Part shown: one piece after another, positions 4,683-23,566 of the stretch | Layout: the number at the start of each line of letters is the position of its first letter | Position numbering within the stretch: position 1 is the stretch's first letter | Virus record (IMG/VR): IMGVR_UViG_3300005747_001325 | Location: 1 to 23,657 of that record | Source of the DNA: a virus | Strand: one strand, 5' to 3' | DNA: 23,657 nt | The notes under the pieces: model-generated | The model's database searches: none | What the model saw: only the letters and a program-made list of their open reading frames with translations | Told to the model about the DNA's origin: nothing | Translations under genes and position numbers: made by a program

Positions 4683-5267
4683 ATGAGCAACTTATTTAAC
4701 AAACTAGAATTACAGGCATTTAGATCTGGTATTACACCCCGGACTAAGGAATCAAGAGATTGGTTTAGACGGAAGGCATTAGCACTTCGTAATGTTAGCC
4801 GCAGCGCGCTGATGAAGGAAGAACCAGTAACACTGTCAAATCGATCCGTTGTTGGTTCGATGTATATGTTCTTCTATGATCCAAAGCATAAGAAGACATT
4901 ACCATACTATGATTCGTTTCCACTGGTTATTGTTATCGATAAAGCAGAAGGCGGATTCCTAGGATTAAATCTACATTACCTTCCTCCGATTCTTAGAGCT
5001 AAGTTCCTTGACGCTTTGCTAGATATAACCAGTAACGATAAGTATGACGAATCTACAAAATTTGCTTTGTCCTACTCGTTATTGAAAAAGTCGTCAAAGT
5101 ACAAATATTTTAAACCTTGTATAAAGCATTACCTAGCCAGCAACGTAAAAAGTAGATTCGCGAAGGTGCACGCGCCCGAGTGGGAAATCGCAGCATTCTT
5201 ACCTACAGCTGATTGGCAAAAGGCTGGTAAGTCAACGGTTTATTCTAACTCCAGAAGGATGATTTAA
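4683..5267 (+). CDS. Conserved T4-like virion/assembly protein, role unassigned
   Basis: A 194-residue protein between gp4 and the tube-fold gene. It is basic and Tyr-rich: GITPRTKESRDWFRRKA near the N-terminus, then MYMFFYDPKHKKTLPYYDSFPL (about 59-80), GFLGLNLHYLPPILRAKFLDAL (about 91-112) and a C-terminal EWEIAAFLPTA. Proteins with these motifs recur beside gp4 in cyanophage-type T4-like phages (from memory). The position would suit a head or tail completion role such as gp2 or gp3, but no residue decides this. It lacks a clear ribosome site; the stop overlaps the next start by one base (TAATG), so the two are coupled. Confidence 0.8.
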   Translation: MSNLFNKLELQAFRSGITPRTKESRDWFRRKALALRNVSRSALMKEEPVTLSNRSVVGSMYMFFYDPKHKKTLPYYDSFPLVIVIDKAEGGFLGLNLHYLPPILRAKFLDALLDITSNDKYDESTKFALSYSLLKKSSKYKYFKPCIKHYLASNVKSRFAKVHAPEWEIAAFLPTADWQKAGKSTVYSNSRRMI

Positions 5268-6001
5268 TGGCAAGCATTGATCAGTTTAAGTCTTTAGTTT
5301 CTGCCAAGGATGGAATGGCAAGAGCCAATCTATTCTTAATAGAATTACCAGGTGGATTTCCAGGTGCATCCGTTCGAGAATTAAACCTATTGTGTAAAGA
5401 CGTACAGCTTCCTGGTCGTCAGATTATGACTAACGAACGTCGTATTGGTATGAAGATGGAAAGAATGGCATATGGCTATGCTGTCACAGATATCTCATTG
5501 ACCTTTCATGTAATGAACGACTACGGTGTAAAAGAGTACTTTGAGGCATGGCAAAACTTGGCTGTTGACCAAAATAAATTCGAGGCAGGATACCAGAAGG
5601 CGAGAGACGGAAGCGGATATGCTAAATCCGTAAAGATCCGGCAGCTTAAAAAGGGAGTGAATCTACCCGTACCTAAGAAAGAATTCTTTGACACCAGAGG
5701 GCTTCCACAGGCTATTCGAACTCGACTTCCTAAGTTTGGTCCTATTGATCTAGCATCAGGCCAATTGGATCTAAGCTCTATTACAAATGACGATGTGGCT
5801 TATATCTGTGAATTAGAGAATGCTTTCCCGACTACAGTTAATCCTATTCAGTTAAATAACGAATTGGATGGATTGGTAGAACTCAACGTACAGCTATCCT
5901 ATACAAACTGGACTTCAAGTAAGGCATTTAAGCCACTACAACTACAGAACTTTATTAGCCGGCAGATTGGCACAGCTATCGGCAGGGTTTTCGATACTTA
6001 A
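5267..6001 (+). CDS. Tail-tube-fold protein, probable gp54-type tube initiator
   Basis: A 244-residue protein with the tail tube (gp19) fold pattern: an early LLCKDVQLPGRQ, then YGYAVTDISLTFHVMND with YFEAWQNLAVD, an inserted basic segment (about 110-165), and a C-terminal AFPTTVNPIQLNNELDGLVELNVQLSYTNW, the usual last strands of tube subunits. It is larger than T4 gp19 (163 residues) and sits among baseplate and tail-assembly genes, which favours a gp54-like tube initiator or baseplate-proximal ring over the major tube protein. Start coupled to the preceding stop (TAATG) with AAGGATG upstream. Fold confident; exact ring uncertain. Confidence 0.75.
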   Translation: MASIDQFKSLVSAKDGMARANLFLIELPGGFPGASVRELNLLCKDVQLPGRQIMTNERRIGMKMERMAYGYAVTDISLTFHVMNDYGVKEYFEAWQNLAVDQNKFEAGYQKARDGSGYAKSVKIRQLKKGVNLPVPKKEFFDTRGLPQAIRTRLPKFGPIDLASGQLDLSSITNDDVAYICELENAFPTTVNPIQLNNELDGLVELNVQLSYTNWTSSKAFKPLQLQNFISRQIGTAIGRVFDT

Positions 6002-6021: not shown

Positions 6022-6741
6022 ATGGCACTACCCCAAATTAATACTTTTCCATGGTATGATATTACTATTCCATCAACAAACAAAACAGTAAGATATAGAC
6101 CATATAACGTAGGAGAACAAAAGACACTTCTTATAGCATTTGAATCGGGTGAATCATCTAATATTGCAAAGTCGCTGTTAGATATTGTTATCAATTGTAT
6201 TGAAGATAATCTAGATAGAAACTCTCTAACAACATTTGACGTAGAGTATTTGTTCTTGCAGATTAGATCAAAATCCGTTGGTGAAACAAGCAATGTTATT
6301 TTGACCTGCCCAAGTTGTGGACAGCAAAATGGCGTAGAGATTATCGTAGATAAGATACACATTGATCGATCCAAATTCCCGGAACGAATGATTAAGATAT
6401 CCGAAGACTACACGCTGGAACTCAAGTTCCCGACCTATATTGATGTTCTGAATAGTAACGGTGTAACCCAAGAGGATTCTGTCAGTGAATTATTGTATCG
6501 GACTATTATGCAGAGTTTAGATAAACTACATACGCCGGATGAATTAATTCGATTTAAGGATGAACCCGTAGAAGAGATTACGAAATTTATTGATAATCTA
6601 ACTACTGGGCAATATAGTAAACTTATGGAATTTGTAAATCGTTTACCAAGTTTAAAACAAGATGTAGAGTATGAATGTGAAGGTGAAGGGTGTGACCAAA
6701 AGAATAATTATACGTTACAAGGATTATACGATTTTTTTTAA
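6022..6741 (+). CDS. 26: gp26/gp51-type baseplate hub assembly protein (tail assembly chaperone)
   Basis: A 239-residue member of the T4_baseplate (gp26/gp51) type, which helps assemble the hub and is not a major virion part. It has an N-terminal beta-rich segment (TNKTVRYRPYNVGEQKTLLIA), a helical region, and two cysteine pairs, Cys96-x2-Cys99 (CPSCGQ) and Cys219-x4-Cys224, that could bind one zinc. The start has AAGGATGA upstream. The last sense codons sit in a run of eight T followed by TAATAG, and the -1 frame is open across this point for another 63 codons (see the extension entry). Placement just before the tape measure candidate is the classic place of tail assembly chaperones. gp26 versus gp51 is not resolved. 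Confidence 0.8.
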   Translation: MALPQINTFPWYDITIPSTNKTVRYRPYNVGEQKTLLIAFESGESSNIAKSLLDIVINCIEDNLDRNSLTTFDVEYLFLQIRSKSVGETSNVILTCPSCGQQNGVEIIVDKIHIDRSKFPERMIKISEDYTLELKFPTYIDVLNSNGVTQEDSVSELLYRTIMQSLDKLHTPDELIRFKDEPVEEITKFIDNLTTGQYSKLMEFVNRLPSLKQDVEYECEGEGCDQKNNYTLQGLYDFF

Positions 6742-6929
6742 TAGCTCTTTCTCATGACACACTAGTTAATTTTTACCAAGTGAATTTTCAATTGCTACAG
6801 AATTACAATTATTCACTTTTTGATCTAGAAAATATGCTGCCATGGGAAAGAGAGATATACCTACAAATGCTTCTCGATCAGCTAAAGCAGCAAAGAGAAG
6901 AAAGACAGAAAAGAGCTTTTACTAGTTAA
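6732..6929 (+). CDS. -1 frameshift extension of the gp26-like chaperone (GT-like product)
   Basis: Frame -1 relative to the upstream gene is open from the T run at 6732-6739 to the TAA at 6927-6929. Slippage on T TTT TTT (6732-6738) would yield a 302-residue fusion whose last 63 residues include YNYSLFDLENMLPWEREIYL and a Lys/Glu/Arg-rich end. The motif (a small domain with a W/F-E-R-E/D-I/L-Y core) is the type seen in second reading frames of tail assembly chaperones. No start codon with a ribosome site exists in this frame: GTG at 6780 has none and the first in-frame ATG lies inside the motif. This argues for frameshifting over independent initiation. It ends nine bases before the tape measure start. 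Confidence 0.72.
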   Translation, partial: FFLIALSHDTLVNFYQVNFQLLQNYNYSLFDLENMLPWEREIYLQMLLDQLKQQREERQKRAFTS

Positions 6930-6938
6930 GGATACGCA

Positions 6939-8594
6939 ATGTCGTCGTTGGAAGCAGTTAATAAAACCTTAGGCAGGATCGAGGAAGATACTGACCTTCT
7001 TAATAGGAACTTTCATAAATGGTTTATAACACAGGAACGTAGTAAGTTAGATGATGAGGAAGATCGAAGGGAAAGAAAAAAGCTTCTAGCAATGCTAGGA
7101 ACTGCGGCTGCCGCAGGGGCTGGACGAGGCGGTAGAGGTGGTGGAGCTGGCAGAAAAGCTAGTGGCGGAATGAACCCGTTAGGATTTCTTAATAATCTTC
7201 CCCCTTGGGCTAAACTACTATTAGGTGTATATGCAGGAAAGGCGGCATACGGGGCATACAGAGTTGCAACGGCACCGCAAAGAGCAGGTAACAAGCTTGG
7301 CCAAATGGCCGTAGACTATTATGATGCGAGGTCACGAAAAAACATTGAAGCGGCAGAAGCTATACGTCAGGCTAAACGGAAGGCAGAATTTAAGGCAGAA
7401 ACAGCCCGGTTATTAGAGGAGATTGATGCTGGTTCAAAAACACCAAAGGCTCCGCAAGCCCCACAGCTAGATTATACTTCAAGTGGCGTGGGCCTTACAT
7501 CATCTGACGCGCCACTAACAGCTAGTAGGACTCCGCCCTTATCGTCACCAACAGCTCCTGGGATTGACGTGGCACCATTAAAGCCATTATTACCAAACGC
7601 CCCTAAGATACAAACAAGCGTTTCTGACCTTCAGAACATGAGAATTCTCATCAACGGAGATCGCGTATCGTATTGGGAGAAGGACAGAGGATTTATCAAA
7701 GTAGACGAAGCGGTTTCTAGATTACAGAAAGCTGGATTGGATGCAAGGGGTAATCCTATTCCAATGTTAACTCCACCCATAGAAACTGATTTTACAGTAG
7801 ATACAAAGTCAGCGCCTCCAGTTAAAAATAACTTTACCCCCATTGGAGATAATGGCCCCAGATTACCAGGAGGTATATCAACCAGCGGCCTTTTGATATT
7901 GGATACATTTGACACAGCAGACAGCGTTATAAAACAAAGCTATGGTCCACGGAGTGTCACTAATCCTAATCCGACAGCTACTGGCGGAGCACTAATGGTA
8001 AACACTGTCGCAGGACTGGGGCAAGCTGGCGGGGAATTTTTTGATTTCCTGGCCACTATCTATGGCGCCGCGACCGGCAAAGATAGTCAAACCAATATTG
8101 GCCAGGCATTGGGTGATTCTATAAGAGATAGCGAGCTGGGCCGGCGGCTGGCTGGCCAAGGTAACGAGGTAGGATTAAACCCGATATTTGCTGCTACCGT
8201 AAGCTCAATGGCTGACAGAATGAATGCTGCATTAGAACACGTTGTTAATGGAGTAGGGATAGTTTCTGGTACTACCACCGGTGCTGAAATCCGGGATAAA
8301 GCAATACAACAACAAATTAATCAAGGCCAAGCTTTGGCGAATCTTGGAAGTCCCGGCCTTGAGCCGCTAACAAAGATGAGTGACGCACAGGTCCAAGCTG
8401 CACTTGCACTAATTGAAGCTGCTGCGGCCCAAACTAAAGCTGCTAAGGCGATGGCAGGTAGTGGTGGGGGATCCGGCTCCGGTGCAATCAATGCTTTACC
8501 AGTTAATCCAACCTATGACCATAACTATAATAAGATTGAATATGGTATAGCTGGTGGTGGTAATGCTACATTAGGAATTTTAGGCGTTAGATAA
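6939..8594 (+). CDS. 29: Probable tape measure / hub protein (gp29-like)
   Basis: A 551-residue protein immediately after the chaperone frameshift region, the canonical tape measure position; T4 gp29 (590 residues) both sets tail length and belongs to the hub. The N-terminus is a charged helix (about 1-50, RIEEDTDLLNRNFHKW, DDEEDRRERKK), followed by a Gly/Ala/Arg-rich stretch (about 55-80), a hydrophobic segment near 90-107 (WAKLLLGVYAGKAAYGAY), a Pro/Ala linker (about 165-215) and Gly/Ala-rich C-terminal helices. Composition is low in aromatics and cysteine, as usual for tape measures. No sequence motif proves gp29; the call rests on position, size and composition. Start supported by AAGGATA. 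Confidence 0.65.
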   Translation: MSSLEAVNKTLGRIEEDTDLLNRNFHKWFITQERSKLDDEEDRRERKKLLAMLGTAAAAGAGRGGRGGGAGRKASGGMNPLGFLNNLPPWAKLLLGVYAGKAAYGAYRVATAPQRAGNKLGQMAVDYYDARSRKNIEAAEAIRQAKRKAEFKAETARLLEEIDAGSKTPKAPQAPQLDYTSSGVGLTSSDAPLTASRTPPLSSPTAPGIDVAPLKPLLPNAPKIQTSVSDLQNMRILINGDRVSYWEKDRGFIKVDEAVSRLQKAGLDARGNPIPMLTPPIETDFTVDTKSAPPVKNNFTPIGDNGPRLPGGISTSGLLILDTFDTADSVIKQSYGPRSVTNPNPTATGGALMVNTVAGLGQAGGEFFDFLATIYGAATGKDSQTNIGQALGDSIRDSELGRRLAGQGNEVGLNPIFAATVSSMADRMNAALEHVVNGVGIVSGTTTGAEIRDKAIQQQINQGQALANLGSPGLEPLTKMSDAQVQAALALIEAAAAQTKAAKAMAGSGGGSGSGAINALPVNPTYDHNYNKIEYGIAGGGNATLGILGVR

Positions 8595-13969: not shown

Positions 13970-13996
13970 TAGTAGTACAAAGGCATGGAGGGAAAT

Positions 13997-14353
13997 ATGG
14001 CCGCAAAGACACTTGAGGCAGATTCAATATTTGCACATCTGGATACAGATGGTGATGGGGTAATTACCGATGAGGAAATGGCCCGCGCAAAAGAGATTGC
14101 TGAGTTCGAACACAAACGTAAAATGCAAGACAATGAAGATGCAAAGGAAGACCAGATCAGGCAAATGGCATGGTTTGCTCTTTGGGGCATGCTTCTTTAT
14201 CCTATTACTATTATTCTAACATCAATCCTAGGGCAAGACGAAGCCTCAGGATTGATTGCTAATATCGCACCGACTTACTTCGTAGCTATCGCCGGTTTGG
14301 TTGCTGCGTTCTTCGGCGCTCAAGCTTACTCTAAAGGTAAGAAGGAAGGTTAA
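13997..14353 (+). CDS. EF-hand membrane protein, late-expressed
   Basis: 118 residues. A canonical EF-hand calcium loop (residues 16-27, DTDGDGVITDEE) is followed by a charged helix and two membrane helices (about 57-79, MAWFALWGMLLYPITIILTS; about 91-107, YFVAIAGLVAAFFGAQAY) and a basic tail. Start at 13997 chosen because GGAGGG lies just ahead; the ATG at 13985 has none. It is the only plus-strand gene in this accessory region and has an exact late promoter. Two helices plus late timing would suit a holin-like or virion membrane role, but this is inference. The stop overlaps the convergent nuclease stop. Confidence 0.85.
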   Translation: MAAKTLEADSIFAHLDTDGDGVITDEEMARAKEIAEFEHKRKMQDNEDAKEDQIRQMAWFALWGMLLYPITIILTSILGQDEASGLIANIAPTYFVAIAGLVAAFFGAQAYSKGKKEG

Positions 14354-14817
14354 CCCTTCTTCATCTTTTCAACAGCGGCGTTGTAGTCCTCTTGGGTTAC
14401 AACGCCTTCCTGTAAAAGCCTCTCGCGGTTTTTCATATGTGCTTCCTGGGTTTCTTCTTTGCTTCCGCCAAAATATGGTACGCAATGACCGGTCTCTGCC
14501 ATTACTTCCGTTACCATTCTACCATCTTCGGTCACAAAGTCTCCAAGCACTCTACCAAACTTGCCCTTCATATCTTCGCCATTTCTAGCGATCTGTGTCT
14601 TTAGAATAGCTTTCTCACCAAGTAGTTCTTGTAATTTAGCCTTTGCAGCTTTACCAAATATTTTTTCTACTTTATCAGCTGTACGACTTTCGGGTGTATC
14701 AATACCCATAATACGAACTCTCTCATCAGCTAAAACTACACCAAATCCTAGTTCAATATCAACATCCACAGTGTCACCATCAACCACTCTATTAATCTTT
14801 GCTCTATATTCATACAT
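14350..14817 (-). CDS. Staphylococcal-nuclease-type (SNase/thermonuclease) enzyme
   Basis: 155-residue calcium-dependent nuclease of the SNase family. The OB-fold active site is intact: VDGDT (Asp15), RVRIMGIDTPE (Arg35, Asp40, Glu43) and KFGRVLG (Arg89) correspond to Asp21, Arg35, Asp40, Glu43 and Arg87 of the staphylococcal enzyme. No signal peptide is seen, so it should act inside the infected cell, for example on host DNA or RNA, unless packaged. An exact late promoter is at 14850-14857 and a weak AAGGGA ribosome site lies ten bases upstream. Ends tail-to-tail with the EF-hand gene. Confidence 0.92.
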   Translation of the reverse strand: MYEYRAKINRVVDGDTVDVDIELGFGVVLADERVRIMGIDTPESRTADKVEKIFGKAAKAKLQELLGEKAILKTQIARNGEDMKGKFGRVLGDFVTEDGRMVTEVMAETGHCVPYFGGSKEETQEAHMKNRERLLQEGVVTQEDYNAAVEKMKKG

Positions 14818-16830: not shown

Positions 16831-17457
16831 CTAATTTTTAGTTCTAATCTCAATATTTTCCGTTTTAGGAATCTTCAACAAATCGTGTTTATGGTAAAGA
16901 ACAAACTGTGTATCCTTAAACTCATTAAAGATCCCGTTCCAAATTGGTCGCCATCGATCATTTAATCTGACGTTGTTCATTGCACCTCTATCGGAGTTCA
17001 GGACTAGATCCGTATAGCTTTGTAAGTTCATATCAAATAAGGAGTCAAACCCATACATGTGGATCTCTGTCCCCTTTAGATGATTAGCAGCATAGTGTAC
17101 AGCAAAGTGTCCGCAGTTGAAGTTAGTGTACATATTACCTTTAGTGTCGGTGGGACTAAGCTTTGTATACTCTGGAACGTGTGTGTAAAAGCCGCGGATC
17201 TTATGCCCGAACTTCATTTTGAAGTTGCCTCTGTTATTGTCATACCAGATCTTAGGTCTATATCCTAAGGTCCATTGACCATCAATCTGAACGCTACCTT
17301 CAGTTAATGCCATACACATTTTAAAATCGACAATACACGAGGTATAAAGATTACGTATGGCCATTGGTGGCTGATTACAACCAACCTTTATACCTTTTGC
17401 ATCTCTATACATACGGGCATTATCCCCATTACCTATAACATGAATTACGCGACTCAT
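16831..17457 (-). CDS. Glycan-locus protein, possible sialyltransferase/DUF115-like transferase
   Basis: 208 residues. Opens with SRVIHVIGNGDNARMYRD and IKVGCNQPP, a nucleotide-binding-like Rossmann start followed by a conserved polar loop; later CGHFAVHYAANHLKGTEIHM then YGFDSLFD and RWRPIWNGIF. The order GNG...N...GTEIHMYGFDS resembles GT42 sialyltransferase/DUF115-like folds. Activity is not proven. TAGGAGA ribosome site; overlaps the upstream GT by 29 bases. Last gene of the glycan locus. Confidence 0.7.
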   Translation of the reverse strand: MSRVIHVIGNGDNARMYRDAKGIKVGCNQPPMAIRNLYTSCIVDFKMCMALTEGSVQIDGQWTLGYRPKIWYDNNRGNFKMKFGHKIRGFYTHVPEYTKLSPTDTKGNMYTNFNCGHFAVHYAANHLKGTEIHMYGFDSLFDMNLQSYTDLVLNSDRGAMNNVRLNDRWRPIWNGIFNEFKDTQFVLYHKHDLLKIPKTENIEIRTKN

Positions 17458-18103
17458 GGAACTCTCCTATATCCTCTTTTATAAGATCCTGAATGTGTTG
17501 CTTACCCTTCCCACCAGTCCAATGCATTATCCTGATATCTTTAGGTGCAGTTTGGTCAATAAGGTCAAGCCTTAATGTGTTATACTTTTTAGGAAGATCT
17601 TTAATATATATCTCTTTACTTAACGGATCACCAAGAAGTTCGTGTAGTACTTCCTGATCACCCACTTCGGGATTACTAGCTACTGCATTACGCCATTTCT
17701 GTAGGATCGGAGGTAGACCTTGGAATCCAACCACACCAGAGTTATGCCATTTGCTTTGTCTACGACTAGTCCACGGCTGATCCACTACCATCGATAATTT
17801 GTTTGGTTCAATGTGGTCAAAGATCTCATCGATTGGTCCTTGTACATGACAATCAGTATCAATCCAGCAAACCTTTTCAGACACCTTCGATGCAGCAATC
17901 ATCGCATCTGGTTTCTTAAACCATCCAACGCTTTTACTTTCTAGTGGTGAGGGCCCAAATACTCGTTTGGCTTCTGTGGTCATACCAAAGTCATAAACTA
18001 TAATATTGGTATTAGTATGAATCTTAATAGTATCCATAAACCAACCTAGCATCCATTCAGTGTTACTATCACATCCAGTAATAAAGGTCTTAGAGTATTT
18101 CAT
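17429..18103 (-). CDS. GT8-like glycosyltransferase
   Basis: 224 residues with a GT-A fold: DTD metal/nucleotide motif (Asp82, Asp84 in VCWIDTDCHV), SKWHNSGVVGFQG (about 118-129) and a C-terminal MHWTGGKGKQH (about 193-203), the GT8-style HxxGxxK ending. Should transfer a hexose from a nucleotide sugar. Overlaps the upstream GT25-like gene by 14 bases. No signal peptide, so cytoplasmic. Acceptor unknown. Confidence 0.82.
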   Translation of the reverse strand: MKYSKTFITGCDSNTEWMLGWFMDTIKIHTNTNIIVYDFGMTTEAKRVFGPSPLESKSVGWFKKPDAMIAASKVSEKVCWIDTDCHVQGPIDEIFDHIEPNKLSMVVDQPWTSRRQSKWHNSGVVGFQGLPPILQKWRNAVASNPEVGDQEVLHELLGDPLSKEIYIKDLPKKYNTLRLDLIDQTAPKDIRIMHWTGGKGKQHIQDLIKEDIGEFHESRNSCYR

Positions 18104-18737
18104 AGTTGCTGTCCCATGTATGTTTAGCTACACATCCTACAGGATTCTGGATTGTAGTGAATGTATCCTTAACAACCACCTTCCAGGGGTAGTGCTCTTG
18201 CAGGTAAGGAAAGTTCTGTGTATTCATAAACACGTCAGTTGGTCCCGCTTGGATCTTTGCCTGGTATACTAGATCCTTTGCTCCCCATGGATTAATCCGA
18301 TACGCGTGCGCGCCTCCGAAGTATCTCTTATGTGTAAGTGGACCAGTTCCAAGGAATGGAGGGATCCTATATTTACCATATGATGGTGCACCAAGATTCA
18401 GGATCTTATTAAATGCAATAGTATCCTTTATCTCGTCCACAATAACCGCATCATGTTCAAAGATAGTAATTGGCCGCCGTGTGTTTAATGATAGTTTCCA
18501 TAGTGAGTAATGAGATAGAAAGGCAGCGATACAATTATCAATGCGGGAATACATCTCAGTAAAGCCAAGGGACGAAAGTTCTTCCCTTTTCATCATCTTT
18601 GTTATATCTGTATTACTAGGTGTGATAGCATCAAACATCTCGATCTTCATACCATAGTGTTCGCCTGACTTAATAAGTCGTTCAGCGTATTTTACTGACT
18701 GTGGAAGATCTTTTATAGTAATGACATAATGTTTCAT
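18090..18737 (-). CDS. GT25-like glycosyltransferase
   Basis: 215 residues, LgtB/GT25 type: MKHYVITIKDLPQS opening, EMFDAITPSN, CIAAFLSHYSLW, then the acidic EHD motif (94-96 in ITIFEHDAVI) and GGAHAYRINPWGAKDLVYQA. The start at 18737 shares ATGA with the previous stop and matches the family start; the longer in-frame reading is a shadow. One of three GT25-like genes in the locus. Confidence 0.85.
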   Translation of the reverse strand: MKHYVITIKDLPQSVKYAERLIKSGEHYGMKIEMFDAITPSNTDITKMMKREELSSLGFTEMYSRIDNCIAAFLSHYSLWKLSLNTRRPITIFEHDAVIVDEIKDTIAFNKILNLGAPSYGKYRIPPFLGTGPLTHKRYFGGAHAYRINPWGAKDLVYQAKIQAGPTDVFMNTQNFPYLQEHYPWKVVVKDTFTTIQNPVGCVAKHTWDSNYEIL

Positions 18738-19432
18738 AGTGTGGTTGTGCTCGCTGTTCTTTGGACTTTGGTATAGTATGTTTTGCTTACACCCAATAAC
18801 GGAAATAGTTGGTAACACATCAAGGCGTCGTTTGGCCATAAGCCATATTCATTTACTAATTCTAACATCTCTTCCGCTGCCCATGGTTTAATTATATAGG
18901 CAGAGTTGCCAGCTAATCCTTGGGGAATGTTTATATTATCTATACGTGGAACATTAGCAACCTCTGATTTTGACTCCTGGAGCATCCTATGGAACGCTGT
19001 AGCCATCCTTGTAGCACCGAAAGGTTCATTAATGCCGATAATACCATACCGAGATTCTAATAGGCTGTCGTACGATAATTTTCTAGTAAAGATCGCATCA
19101 TGTTCCAGTACTAGTATTGGTTCACGTTCATCAAAGCACTTTTCCCATAGTGTCAAGTGGCTCAGCGCACAAGCTATTCTAGCATTTTTATTTCGGGTCG
19201 GATATGCTTTCTTTGTTAACCCTGATGCAAAGTCAACTACTTCGCCTTCCCAGGGATAGTTCCATTTTGTTCTATACCGATGCGTCATTAAGGCTTGCGC
19301 ATCATCAGGAACTATAGCATCAAATCTTTCTATAGGGAACTCGTTCTTTACCCGCCAACTGCTTTCAATACAATGCTGTGAAGCAGTTTCGGATATCTCA
19401 TTACCCTCAATTGTTATAACATAAGCTCTCAT
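18734..19432 (-). CDS. GT25-like glycosyltransferase
   Basis: 232 residues: MRAYVITIEGNEIS, ERFDAIVPDD, ARIACALSHLTLWEKCF, then EHD (110-112 in ILVLEHDAIF), and GLAGNSAYIIKPWAAEEMLE. Same architecture as the downstream and the 21469 paralogues but divergent, so each may add a different sugar or linkage. Start shares ATGA with the cupin stop. Confidence 0.87.
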   Translation of the reverse strand: MRAYVITIEGNEISETASQHCIESSWRVKNEFPIERFDAIVPDDAQALMTHRYRTKWNYPWEGEVVDFASGLTKKAYPTRNKNARIACALSHLTLWEKCFDEREPILVLEHDAIFTRKLSYDSLLESRYGIIGINEPFGATRMATAFHRMLQESKSEVANVPRIDNINIPQGLAGNSAYIIKPWAAEEMLELVNEYGLWPNDALMCYQLFPLLGVSKTYYTKVQRTASTTTL

Positions 19433-19788
19433 TTTTGGCTATCACCCGGCATAACCCTATAATTATCCTCTACCGAATCTGGAGTAGAAACTTCTATAAT
19501 AGTTCCTTTGTCAATACAATATATCTTATGCGGTAGCAAAGGTTTATTACGCCAGGTGTCTCCTTGATTTAATTCTTGTTTATGGCTACTAGCATCTTTG
19601 GTATCAATCCATTGTACCAAAAAGCTGCCGTCTAGTACATACCAAGTTTCATCTTTTTCTCTATGGAAATGCATGGAGAACTGAGCGCCTTTATTAAACC
19701 TTAAAAGCTTACCGCAGTACTTGTCGTTAGTGGACCAGATCAGTTCGTGACCCCAGCCTTTTTCTACAAAGCCATTTAATCTATCCAC
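19429..19788 (-). CDS. Cupin, phosphomannose isomerase type II-like
   Basis: 119 residues in one cupin barrel: VEKGWGHELIW, FSMHFHREKDETWYVLDG with His40, His42 and Glu47 as metal ligands, QGDTWRNKPLLPHKIYCI (His87), and VSTPDSVEDNYRVMPGDS. Resembles the C-terminal isomerase half of mannose-1-phosphate guanylyltransferase enzymes; could isomerise a sugar phosphate for the locus. GTG start at 19788, one base after the kinase stop; no ATG is available before the conserved core. Confidence 0.8.
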   Translation of the reverse strand: MDRLNGFVEKGWGHELIWSTNDKYCGKLLRFNKGAQFSMHFHREKDETWYVLDGSFLVQWIDTKDASSHKQELNQGDTWRNKPLLPHKIYCIDKGTIIEVSTPDSVEDNYRVMPGDSQK

Positions 19789-19789
19789 T

Positions 19790-20548
19790 TTAGATCTCCT
19801 CTAGTGTTGGGGCATAAACACCCATGTGCTGAACTGTTATTGCCGCAGCTTGTATAGCAAACTCAATAGCCTGACTAATATCTTTCGTGTCCAGATGTTT
19901 CTTTACAAAAGCGGCGAAGAAAGTGTCACCAGCACCGCATACATCATTTACTTTAATATTAGGTGTAGGAAACGACTTACCGTACCATAAGACCTCTTTG
20001 CCGCCTTTCGTAACAATTGTAGTGTGGTAATCTGGGGATGAGGTTTTATTAAGGTATTCGTCTTCATTAATTTTTAGATACGCGCCGGAAAATCTAGAAA
20101 GATCGGGCTTCTTTGTATCAATATAGATTGGAATCCCTAGCTTATTTCCAGTGCGTATTATATGCTCAATATCGACATATGTTAAGAAGCCTTTATTGTA
20201 ATCAGTAATCACAATAGCATCAGAGGATGGGTCAATAAAATTAGTGCGACCAATACGTTCATCTATATCCTCATCGACTCTTAGAATCTGGTAATTAGTC
20301 TTCTCATCAATGTACCGGGTCTTAATACTTCTACCGGTGGCGGTGTATTGTACGGGATTACATCCAAAGTTTTTGAAGTTGTTGGACACATTAAAAATCA
20401 TACCGGCTTTATTTTGGGTATATCTTTCTTTAAAGACGGGGATGGGAGCTTCAGGACTTATTCGATCGACAGATCCATAGACATATCGATCAGTACAGCC
20501 GTCTCCGATTAATGTAATTTTCCAAGGTGTTTGTGGTTGACTCATCAT
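19790..20548 (-). CDS. PfkB-family sugar kinase, HldE kinase-domain-like
   Basis: 252 residues. Opening TLIGDGCTDRYVYGSVDRIS then PEAPIPVF is the heptose-7-phosphate kinase (HldE N-domain) signature; NDVCGAGDTFFAAF carries the PfkB catalytic GAGD (Asp208). Shorter than the HldE kinase domain (about 310), with the middle condensed. Would phosphorylate heptose-7-phosphate at C1. The start (20548 or 20545) must precede residue 11, so the 56-59 base overlap with the nucleotidyltransferase gene is real. The two together look like a split HldE. Confidence 0.85.
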   Translation of the reverse strand: MMSQPQTPWKITLIGDGCTDRYVYGSVDRISPEAPIPVFKERYTQNKAGMIFNVSNNFKNFGCNPVQYTATGRSIKTRYIDEKTNYQILRVDEDIDERIGRTNFIDPSSDAIVITDYNKGFLTYVDIEHIIRTGNKLGIPIYIDTKKPDLSRFSGAYLKINEDEYLNKTSSPDYHTTIVTKGGKEVLWYGKSFPTPNIKVNDVCGAGDTFFAAFVKKHLDTKDISQAIEFAIQAAAITVQHMGVYAPTLEEI

Positions 20549-20900
20549 TCACTCTATCGAAGAACTCTATACCCTTACAGAATTCCTCCCCTACTATTTT
20601 ACCATTCTTCCAGTCCGAACCGATTACTCTTACATCAGGTTTATACTCTTTTATAATTGTAACTAATTCTTCATCGTTTGTAAATACCCTAACTTCATCA
20701 ACAGCCTTTAAATTCTCTAATATACATTTACGAGTCTGGAGATTATTGACTGGACGATCCGGGCCTTTGGCTTCACTTATCCTAGAATCTGTGTCAATAG
20801 CTACCATAAGATAATCACCCAGAGACTTAGCATAATTGAGTAGTGCTATGTGCCCCGGGTGTAATATATCATATGCGCCATTCGCCATTATATATTTCAT
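20490..20900 (-). CDS. Nucleotidyltransferase, HldE C-domain (RfaE2)-like
   Basis: 136 residues of the cytidylyltransferase-like superfamily: NGAYDILHPGHIALLNYAKS with the HxGH motif (His14, His17), AKGPDRPVNNLQTRK, and a C-terminal NDESTTNTLENYI matching the HldE STTN end. It should couple a sugar-1-phosphate to a nucleotide, making ADP-heptose if it follows HldE, although a glycerol-phosphate type substrate cannot be excluded. Start shares ATGA with the methyltransferase stop. Confidence 0.85.
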   Translation of the reverse strand: MKYIMANGAYDILHPGHIALLNYAKSLGDYLMVAIDTDSRISEAKGPDRPVNNLQTRKCILENLKAVDEVRVFTNDEELVTIIKEYKPDVRVIGSDWKNGKIVGEEFCKGIEFFDRVNDESTTNTLENYINRRRLY

Positions 20901-21472
20901 TTTCTTTTAATCAGCATTGCTCCTACGCCCTCAGTAAGCTCTTCTACTAATCCAAACTGGCTACCAATAATATCAGATTTCATCCACTCTTTTACGCCAG
21001 GGCCAATCGGAGAGGGTTTACCATGAATCATTGCTGTATCATGAAATACAATCCAATCCCTAACGGATGCAGCATGAAGTTCCAATTCTCTTTGAACCCA
21101 TGGCCAAGTGTGAACAGAATCGATTAGCATTGTATCACAAGGACCTACACATTGTTTATCGTGGGAGCTGCAATTATAAAGGCGAAGGGTACCATTGTGC
21201 TCTTTCAGATAGTCATCAAAGTATTTTTTATGGGTGTTGAATGGGTTAAAGTCGACATCCACTAGATGTAGCTCTCTAGCACCGTGTAGGGCAGCATACG
21301 CTGCACTCCATCCATAATATGTACCTAGCTCTTTATGCACATATCCTTCTCTCATATTTTCGCGAATAAGATCATAATGGCAACGATAACGATAATCTTT
21401 AGTGCCAACTTCTTTAAATTTTTCTGTTAAATCATATAGATCTTTCGCATCCTTGATTTGCAAATTTCTCAT
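20897..21472 (-). CDS. SAM-dependent methyltransferase (Methyltransf_24-like)
   Basis: 191 residues: motif I HKELGTYYGWSAAYAA (about 47-61), LHLVDVDFN, TMLIDSVHTWPWVQRELELH (about 114-133) and WIVFHDTAM. This order is typical of Methyltransf_24-type enzymes found in glycan loci, which often methylate sugars at O or N. Coupled on both sides by ATGA overlaps. Substrate unknown. Confidence 0.85.
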   Translation of the reverse strand: MRNLQIKDAKDLYDLTEKFKEVGTKDYRYRCHYDLIRENMREGYVHKELGTYYGWSAAYAALHGARELHLVDVDFNPFNTHKKYFDDYLKEHNGTLRLYNCSSHDKQCVGPCDTMLIDSVHTWPWVQRELELHAASVRDWIVFHDTAMIHGKPSPIGPGVKEWMKSDIIGSQFGLVEELTEGVGAMLIKRK

Positions 21473-22167
21473 GTATTTTCTCCGTGACTCGTTCTTTGAT
21501 TTCCGAAAATATAATGCGATAGTTCGAAATAATCCGGAAACGCGTATTGCATATGTATAGACTTAGTATTAATAATATAGTCAGCTTTGTCCCAACCATG
21601 TTCCTTTACATTGTTGATAATTCGTTTGGCACCCTTAGGTGATATAGCATAAGCAGCGCTTCCAGGGATCATTCCGGCATTAAGCCATATATTTTTTGAT
21701 TTGTAATTTAAAAATGGATTGACGTATGTATGTATGCCTTCCATAAGAGTGGGCTTGCTTGTGGTATCAAATATGTTTTGATGTAGACCGCTGTGCATAT
21801 TCAGTACTAGCATCTCATCGAATTGCGTGTCGTCCCAAGGCTTTTTTGCAAATACATCGTGTTCTAAAATTACAATGGGTTCGTCTAATTCTATACACTT
21901 ATTCCACAGTGTATAGTGATTTAAGAAGTTGGAATATTTACATTCATATGTCCAGTTAGTACCATTCTTCCCAATCTGTCTATCGTACATATGACTAGGA
22001 TTCATTACAGTTAAATTGTATTTCTTATCGAACTCTTTTACATTCTTAGGTGTAATCCCTTCAAAGAGTTCCGCGTCATATCCGTGCTCAATACAAGAAT
22101 CATATGCCCATCCTGCGGTCTTTTCAGAATTAGCATTGCCTTTAATATGAATAATGTAAGCCTTCAT
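21469..22167 (-). CDS. GT25-like glycosyltransferase
   Basis: 232 residues: MKAYIIHIKGNANSEK, AELFEGITPKN, YSNFLNHYTLWNKC, EHD (102-104 in IVILEHDVFA), and GSAAYAISPKGAKRII. Third GT25-like enzyme of the locus. ATGA overlap with the upstream GT9-like gene. Confidence 0.86.
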   Translation of the reverse strand: MKAYIIHIKGNANSEKTAGWAYDSCIEHGYDAELFEGITPKNVKEFDKKYNLTVMNPSHMYDRQIGKNGTNWTYECKYSNFLNHYTLWNKCIELDEPIVILEHDVFAKKPWDDTQFDEMLVLNMHSGLHQNIFDTTSKPTLMEGIHTYVNPFLNYKSKNIWLNAGMIPGSAAYAISPKGAKRIINNVKEHGWDKADYIINTKSIHMQYAFPDYFELSHYIFGNQRTSHGENT

Positions 22168-22856
22168 ATCCTTAAAGCCTTTTTTTGATAGTCGGCGTAT
22201 GGCGGAACATTTACTTTATTCTCTTTTGCATATTGATGGTACTGTTCCTCGGTAGCTACTTTCACGCCTTTACCGGTCTGCTGGTATATCGTTACACCGG
22301 GTTGTGTCTGTAGGTATCTCATATAGTGATACGCATCAGCAAAATAATAACTATTCTTAGAGATAACTGTAGTTGGTATTTTTAGTGCGGCAGCTAACCA
22401 GGCCGTGCCGGAATCTATAGTTATATGCCGCTCCGACTTTTTCATTAGTCTTACAAGGCTATCAAGATCTGTGCACCTCAATGTGTCCTGGGGGTTGTTT
22501 AGCTTCTGAAGCTGCTCATCTATTTCTACGGGGCTTAGTGCTCGGTCTGCAGCATTGTTACTATTTGTTTTAAATTGGAAAGTGGAGTGTTCTGCTTTAG
22601 ATCGATTTGTAATACTAATTAAGGGTGCTTTATCAATACGCATTTTGTGTAATAGATCGGGCATTGTTTCGGTGATACGCCCATCGATATGCACAAACTC
22701 TGGGACCTCTACCTTTGCGATCTCTAGAATCTTTAATAGAGTGTTAAAGTCCCCTCGGTTATAATATACAGTCTTTATGGCGTAATGTTTAAAGTAACTG
22801 GCCAGGATAATACTATCGCCCAGTGCATCGAATATTCTATACAAGCTTACATTCAT
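22164..22856 (-). CDS. GT9-like (ADP-heptosyltransferase-type) glycosyltransferase
   Basis: 230 residues, GT-B-like. The N-terminal LYRIFDALGDSIILAS is the GD-containing start of GT9 enzymes, and RHITIDSGTAWLAAALKIPT then TVIS (about 143-166) matches their DTGxxHxAAAL-P nucleotide-binding stretch, with Trp where His is usual. Shorter than LPS heptosyltransferases (about 320-350). With the HldE-like pair in the same locus, ADP-heptose is a plausible donor. Coupled by ATGA overlaps. Confidence 0.75.
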   Translation of the reverse strand: MNVSLYRIFDALGDSIILASYFKHYAIKTVYYNRGDFNTLLKILEIAKVEVPEFVHIDGRITETMPDLLHKMRIDKAPLISITNRSKAEHSTFQFKTNSNNAADRALSPVEIDEQLQKLNNPQDTLRCTDLDSLVRLMKKSERHITIDSGTAWLAAALKIPTTVISKNSYYFADAYHYMRYLQTQPGVTIYQQTGKGVKVATEEQYHQYAKENKVNVPPYADYQKKALRI

Positions 22857-23566
22857 GATGTAAATTCTTTCATTCTAGTTTTTGTTTTTGCAAGGAAGTG
22901 GTTAATCTTCCCATCCGGTATTCCGAACGACCACATATAGTTCATACGATTCCATTGGTTGGATAGTTCAACTACATGTATATCATGTTTATTAATCATA
23001 AGGTTTAGATAAGGTTGTTCATTCATTCGAAGCGTATTTCTATATCTTTCTATCTCGAGCATACCCCCAAAGAGCTTTCGGGCTTTCAGTCTTCCCTCTT
23101 TAGTCCATAGAACCACACCACCATTTAAATATCTTTTCTCTAACGGAAATGTAGTAGACTTTTTAAACTGGATATTTCCATACGCTTCTAATTTACTTAT
23201 AGCGCTATTAATAAAGCCTTTCGGACTTCTAGGTCCACCTTCTTGGATCATGCCGATCTCTTTGATATTCTGGTCAAATATATTATCAGTAGTGTCAACA
23301 AGCGTGTCTATGTCTAGCATTAGTACCTTATCAAACTGATCAAAGTATGGATCAAGAAATACCCTGCAGGCTTCTAGATTCTGATTAGGGGCATGGATAG
23401 TTACCTTAGTAGACAATTCATATTTAACACCGATAGCTGCAGCATACTTTTTAGCTGACCGGATACCCAGATTAGCCCAGTGCGGAAATCCATCGGCTTC
23501 CTCTTTAATAATGTCTTTATTGTCACCGGTAAAAGGTAGATAGTATTGGTAGATTAGATTAGCCAT
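22853..23566 (-). CDS. GT8/GT32-like glycosyltransferase
   Basis: 237 residues: IYQYYLPF opening, KVLMLDIDTLVDTTDNIFD with DxD (Asp85, Asp87), EKRYLNGGVVLWTKEG (about 144-157) and a C-terminal QWNRMNYMWSFGIPDGKINH then FL. GT-A fold, nucleotide-sugar-dependent. Its C-terminus resembles that of the preceding partial gene, so the two are tandem paralogues. Start overlaps that gene's stop by eight bases. Confidence 0.82.
   Translation of the reverse strand: MANLIYQYYLPFTGDNKDIIKEEADGFPHWANLGIRSAKKYAAAIGVKYELSTKVTIHAPNQNLEACRVFLDPYFDQFDKVLMLDIDTLVDTTDNIFDQNIKEIGMIQEGGPRSPKGFINSAISKLEAYGNIQFKKSTTFPLEKRYLNGGVVLWTKEGRLKARKLFGGMLEIERYRNTLRMNEQPYLNLMINKHDIHVVELSNQWNRMNYMWSFGIPDGKINHFLAKTKTRMKEFTS

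Follow-up and report, generated by a model that had tools for sequence, protein, structure and literature searches.

A -1 frameshift signal and a candidate stimulatory long-range RNA helix in the tail chaperone gene of T4-type phages

The stretch of DNA analyzed here (the window, 23,657 bases) belongs to a T4-type myovirus of a Kyanoviridae-like kind, and Kyanoviridae are the closest named phages that carry the locus under study. Matches to family profiles identified gp48-, gp53-, gp2-, tail-tube- and gp32-like genes around a gene for a tail assembly chaperone (TAC). The features of this locus, numbered by position in the window, were as follows.

5267..6001, plus strand: upstream tail tube / gp54-like gene (phrog_45 tail tube, E 2e-29)
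6022..6741, plus strand: TAC-N gene (T4 gp26-like) in the zero frame, stop included (PF12322, E 2e-47; phrog_150, E 2e-47; AlphaFold model of the short form, pLDDT 89)
6732..6738, plus strand: slippery heptamer T_TTT_TTT, within a T-run at 6732-6739
6739..6744, plus strand: zero-frame double stop (TAA 6739-6741, TAG 6742-6744)
6738..6929, plus strand: -1 frame extension, TAC-C (gp51-like), from Leu TTA 6738-6740 to the stop TAA 6927-6929 (phrog_634)
6745..6756, plus strand: 5' arm of a long-range RNA helix and putative frameshift stimulator (conserved 10-bp part, 6745-6754), 6 nt past the heptamer
6841..6852, plus strand: 3' arm of the same helix (conserved 10-bp part, 6843-6852), over Pro-Trp-Glu-Arg codons
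6939..8594, plus strand: downstream gene, a tape measure candidate from its position only

The ORF at 6022-6741 encodes a product of 239 amino acids, and its 3' end reads GAT TTT TTT TAA TAG, with a T-run of 8 Ts. The initial annotation had described a zero-frame T TTT TTT followed by a double stop, and this description is exact in the sequence. A heptamer of the form T_TTT_TTN was detected in the same register in all 37 distinct loci of a first set of relatives and in 148 of 149 distinct loci of a larger set, the sole exception being a T4-type gp51 gene. Phe-Phe pairs elsewhere in the 37 loci were encoded as T_TTT_TTY in just 4 of 120 cases. The length of the T-run across the 148 loci was 6 in 120, 7 in 11 and 8 in 17. 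A conserved T-run with a -1 ORF had been named as the feature to look for in related phages, and it was found in these 148 distinct relatives, which carry the heptamer in register and the downstream domain in the -1 frame. An upstream Shine-Dalgarno-like stimulator was searched for, and AGGA or GAGG was found in some loci only. The X_XXY_YYZ heptamer typical of -1 programmed ribosomal frameshifting is present in the zero frame and kept in relatives.

Translation in the -1 frame gives FF-L-IALSHDTLVNFYQ...ENMLPWEREIYL...AFTS, and the frame, as the annotation had stated, stays open past the T-run, with 62 codons after the junction Leu before the stop at 6927-6929. The extension matched phrog_634, "baseplate hub assembly catalyst" (gp51), with an E value of 1.3e-20 and also matched the final part of phrog_150, the family to which gp26 belongs. 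No stop was present within the first 48 extension codons in any of 343 loci, so that none of the homologues examined interrupts the extension in this part; over the same bases, the other two frames contained a stop within 45 codons in 37 of 37 loci. The pN/pS ratio in the 37 distinct loci was about 0.25 for the -1 frame and 1.05 and 2.3 for the other two. These matches and this selection identify the extension as a genuine protein domain and a homologue of gp51. A -1 frame extension was found in every relative of the first comparison and in all further lineages inspected. A like design was present in the Emdodecavirus phiM12, Aeromonas phage Aeh1, Vibrio phage nt-1, Stenotrophomonas phage Moby, the Pootjesviridae RL38J1 and OLIVR5, Methylophilales phage Melnitz and Pelagibacter phage Mosig.

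The relationship of this gene to T4 genes 26 and 51 was apparent from a search with the predicted fused product (TAC-N plus the -1 extension, 302 amino acids). T4-type gp51 proteins aligned with it in one frame over residues 24-284, the gp51 domain being fused in them to a gp26-like domain. T4 gp26 ends in ...GLKEFFELL, slightly beyond the frameshift position, and gp51 reads straight through this position. Both T4 proteins matched PF12322 and aligned with each other with an E value of 2e-6. By homology, then, two paralogous genes in T4 encode what relatives encode with one frameshifted gene, and the short form corresponds to T4 gp26 and the fused form to T4 gp51 according to the alignments. 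In T4 (L108:7803-9229), genes 26 and 51 are divergently oriented on the two strands, their starts separated by 50 bases, so an inversion went along with the copying. The exceptional locus of the larger set, L127, has a frame break in the middle of its T4-type gp51 gene (L127:1501-2246), far from the frameshift site, perhaps through an assembly error.

The short-form model was compared with known structures. Gp26-family proteins were matched in a viral structure library. A Foldseek search of the PDB gave the highest probabilities (0.66 and 0.72) to the HK97 TAC 2ob9, with E values of about 1 that are not significant. By sequence homology, the window carries both parts of a T4-like TAC, namely a TAC-N domain homologous to gp26/gp51 and, in the long form, a C-terminal domain resembling the end of gp51.

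Frameshifting is reportedly said, in the abstract of a 2022 study by Vladimirov and coworkers, to appear conserved in several T4-like groups. As relayed by two later papers (PMC10885494 and PMC12846349), T4-like TACs were identified in that study (Vladimirov, Gautam & Davidson 2022, Virology 566:9-15): the PRFect paper (PMC10885494) cites it for a short gene and a long fusion gene, and poly-T signals in the TAC-N genes of T4-like phages are the point for which it is cited in the Adele paper (PMC12846349). An earlier review had given T4 as an exception to G-T frameshifting (PMC5009743). By these accounts the frameshift principle in T4-like TACs is already published, and the frameshift described here is of a known kind. 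The proposal that T4-type hub chaperones use the logic of lambda G/GT therefore fits the locus, with its gp51-homologous extension, but is not new.

RNA structure downstream of the heptamer was then considered. No local structure was detected directly after the slippery site in the window (z of +0.8 over 49 nt), and the stem that was found is long range. A first hint came from RNAalifold on 20 loci, in which the first extension codons paired with the codons for PWER about 90 nt further on, a feature that the initial annotation had overlooked. In the window, a helix of 12 bp is formed by 6745-6756 with 6841-6852, which leaves a spacer of 6 nt after the heptamer, within the range of about 5 to 9 nt typical of structures that accompany -1 frameshifting; the helix region has an energy of -25.7 kcal/mol and a z-score of -2.71. 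The conserved length of the helix is 10 to 12 bp. Among 7381 arm pairs with 10-nt arms, the helix ranked first for pairing excess over GC3-matched synonymous recoding in 148 distinct loci, and it again ranked first in 54 independent loci, none of which reached 85% identity with a locus used for discovery. Since common descent leaves relatives with shared codons, the recoding z-scores cannot be taken as calibrated probabilities, and weight was put instead on the ranks, on the independent subset and on an in-frame negative control.

Further analyses utilized the 83 loci other than those of the cyanophage ALFH type. In these loci, 90.2% of the cells in the helix were paired, compared to 39 to 63% when the arms were slid, and 59 cells covaried, compared to 24.6 in shuffles, with none of 500 shuffles reaching the observed number. 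The minimum-energy fold contained the helix in 72 of the 83 loci, and a 120-nt region had a mean z-score of -2.76 relative to synonymous recodings. Two pairs covaried strongly, and both joined synonymous third bases, one between Ala and Arg codons (CG 52, UA 23, AU 2) and the other between Leu and Glu codons (CG 37, UA 33). These two variable pairs ranked first and third for Watson-Crick excess among 1035 third-base position pairs. An Rfam search gave no match, and no earlier description of such an RNA element was found in open papers, a scope outside of which Vladimirov et al. 2022 lies. As far as can be told, the helix and its differing counterparts in relatives are new.

These counterparts varied between lineages. 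In the cyanophage ALFH type, the long-range helix was mostly absent and a compact hairpin was present instead at about equal spacing, with a local z-score of -2.65 and values below -2 in 49 of 65 loci; pair counts for this hairpin were weaker, as two different hairpins occur within the group. A 7-bp hairpin was present in OLIVR5, the homologous codons of nt-1 paired with a different sequence, and phiM12 and Aeh1 had other pairing partners. Moby, RL38J1 and ACG-2014d, in which the heptamer is present, exhibited no clear selection for downstream structure. The T4-type in-frame gp51 genes, which served as the negative control, gave no structure signal on average, with six values from -1.81 to +0.75.

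An alternative reading of the helix is that it is a by-product of constraints on amino acids or base composition, or has another role, such as in mRNA stability, and does not stimulate frameshifting. Part of the pairing is already supplied by fixed amino acids (Leu-Ser-His and Trp-Glu-Arg), and third bases could be correlated through the differing G+C contents of the genomes. Against this reading stand the two synonymous pairs at ranks 1 and 3, the first rank obtained under GC3-matched recoding and repeated in independent loci, the hairpin at similar spacing in cyanophage-type relatives and the absence of the signal in T4-type genes that are read in one frame, and we regard this alternative as unlikely. 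An RNA stem past the slippery site probably makes the ribosome slip. We favor the view, with reasonable but not full confidence, that a conserved long-range helix, in which the first extension codons (Ala-Leu-Ser-His) pair with Pro-Trp-Glu-Arg codons 84 to 88 nt further on, drives frameshifting in T4-type TAC genes; that the 5' arm stays in position across relatives and pairs with different partners (within a local hairpin in cyanophages, with others in phiM12 and OLIVR5); and that the element is absent where the T4 lineage has two genes.

The locus as a whole very probably encodes both TAC-N and a rarer TAC-NC from one gene, with the helix promoting a programmed -1 slip of the ribosome on T_TTT_TTT. 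Most ribosomes would end at the TAA at 6739 and release TAC-N. A minority would be held up by the RNA helix 6 nt ahead, slip back by one base with two tRNA-Phe on the heptamer and read on to 6929, which would add the gp51-like TAC-C and yield the 302-residue TAC-NC. We infer the slip itself, its rate and the stimulatory role of the helix from the computed signals. By analogy with lambda gpG/gpGT (PMC5009743), the proteins would act as chaperones, in which case the tape measure protein would be the partner of TAC-N, and the less abundant TAC-NC would recruit tail-tube subunits.

Other origins of a -1 product were also weighed. The extension could belong to a small gene in its own right, which annotations of many cyanophages call gp51, translated from an internal start or by reinitiation after the gp26 stop. 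Many public records do mark it as a short separate gp51 ORF from an internal ATG, or omit it, and in nt-1, Moby, RL38J1, phiM12 and several Ackermannviridae the gp26 stop is overlapped by an ATG (TGATG/TAATG). The -1 frame is under selection, however, from the junction itself and before any usable start: in the 37 distinct loci, pN/pS was 0.275 over extension codons 1 to 17, which precede the usual internal ATGs. In the window, the possible -1 frame starts, counted from the Ile codon, are GTG at +39 nt, TTG at +51 and ATG at +93, the last of these inside the conserved core; among starts up to +60, the TTG alone has a Shine-Dalgarno match, of 4 nt, and none of the nearby start codons has a good ribosome site. 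No independent start with a ribosome site recurred consistently among the homologues either, and the -1 ORF overlaps the TAC-N gene and is under coding selection without a start of its own. With the heptamer kept in register throughout this group and the domain fused to a gp26-like domain in T4-type gp51, a separate gene is very unlikely. The programmed frameshift proposed in the initial annotation was supported at the sequence level by the heptamer register, the coding selection, the open frame and the lack of a good start.

The Ackermannviridae and their relatives (L099, L104, L110-L112 and L114-L118, including Vi01, Menlow and phiMAM1) also have the extension in the -1 frame, and in these the T6 heptamer is gone, with G_ATT_TTC, G_GTT_TTC, A_CTT_TTC and similar sequences in its place. 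Downstream structure was mostly absent in this group, and the signal is therefore not universal in the gene family. An ATG overlaps the gp26 stop (TAATG or similar) in 6 of the 10 loci; the other 4 (Menlow, IME250, phiMAM1 and Vi01) have neither a T6 heptamer nor an overlapping ATG.

Slippage could instead occur at the level of the RNA polymerase on the T-run, and not at the ribosome. A run of 8 Ts, as in the window, is long enough for some RNA polymerase slippage. The run is just 6 Ts long in 120 of 148 relatives, however, the T_TTT_TTN codon register is kept and the conserved helix lies 6 nt downstream, as expected of ribosomal frameshifting, and together these observations make the polymerase a highly improbable source of the -1 product. 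Homopolymer runs are error prone, but the relatives refute a sequencing error or a decayed gene: 148 distinct loci, and also cultured phages, share the break, and the sequence on either side of it is under purifying selection.

The predicted ribosomal frameshifting within one gene places this locus close to several known systems. It shares with T4-like TACs, as they are cited, a family (PF12322 / phrog_150 plus phrog_634), short and long forms with a common N-terminal domain and a poly-T signal, and it differs from T4 itself, with its two separate genes. As in lambda gpG/gpGT (PMC5009743), a short chaperone and a longer -1 frameshifted form are predicted between tail-tube and (here presumed) tape measure genes; unlike the lambda system, this one has a poly-T slippery site and a downstream long-range helix, and no sequence similarity was shown between the two. 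The TAC of the Vandenendeviridae/Andersonviridae, described for Pseudomonas phage Adele (PMC12846349), also consists of a TAC-N and a TAC-C that is reached in the -1 frame via a T-rich site, ahead of the gene for the tape measure. Its invariant motif is GTTTTT, in contrast to T_TTT_TTN here, and an RNA helix goes unmentioned in the part of that paper that concerns this TAC. In abundant marine T4-type phages (cyanophages, pelagiphages and their kin), a single frameshifted gene is probably the source of both tail chaperones. The helix and the differing structures in relatives are the part worth following up, as this candidate stimulatory element is testable and comes with natural variants (long-range helix, hairpin or none) and an absence in T4's own lineage.

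The composition of the next gene had been read as that of a tape measure, and this could not be confirmed from the window: searches of Pfam and PHROG with the ORF at 6939-8594 gave no family match, and it is too divergent for its sequence to show a tape measure identity. In Sinorhizobium phage phiM12, the gene next but one downstream matched tape-measure PHROGs weakly (E 2e-5). Elsewhere in the window, translations inspected by eye suggested a small EF-hand-like membrane protein ORF (13985-14353, plus strand) adjoining a thermonuclease-like ORF (14350-14817, minus strand), and a long run of ORFs on the minus strand (16831-23566) resembled glycosyltransferases and sugar-nucleotide enzymes.
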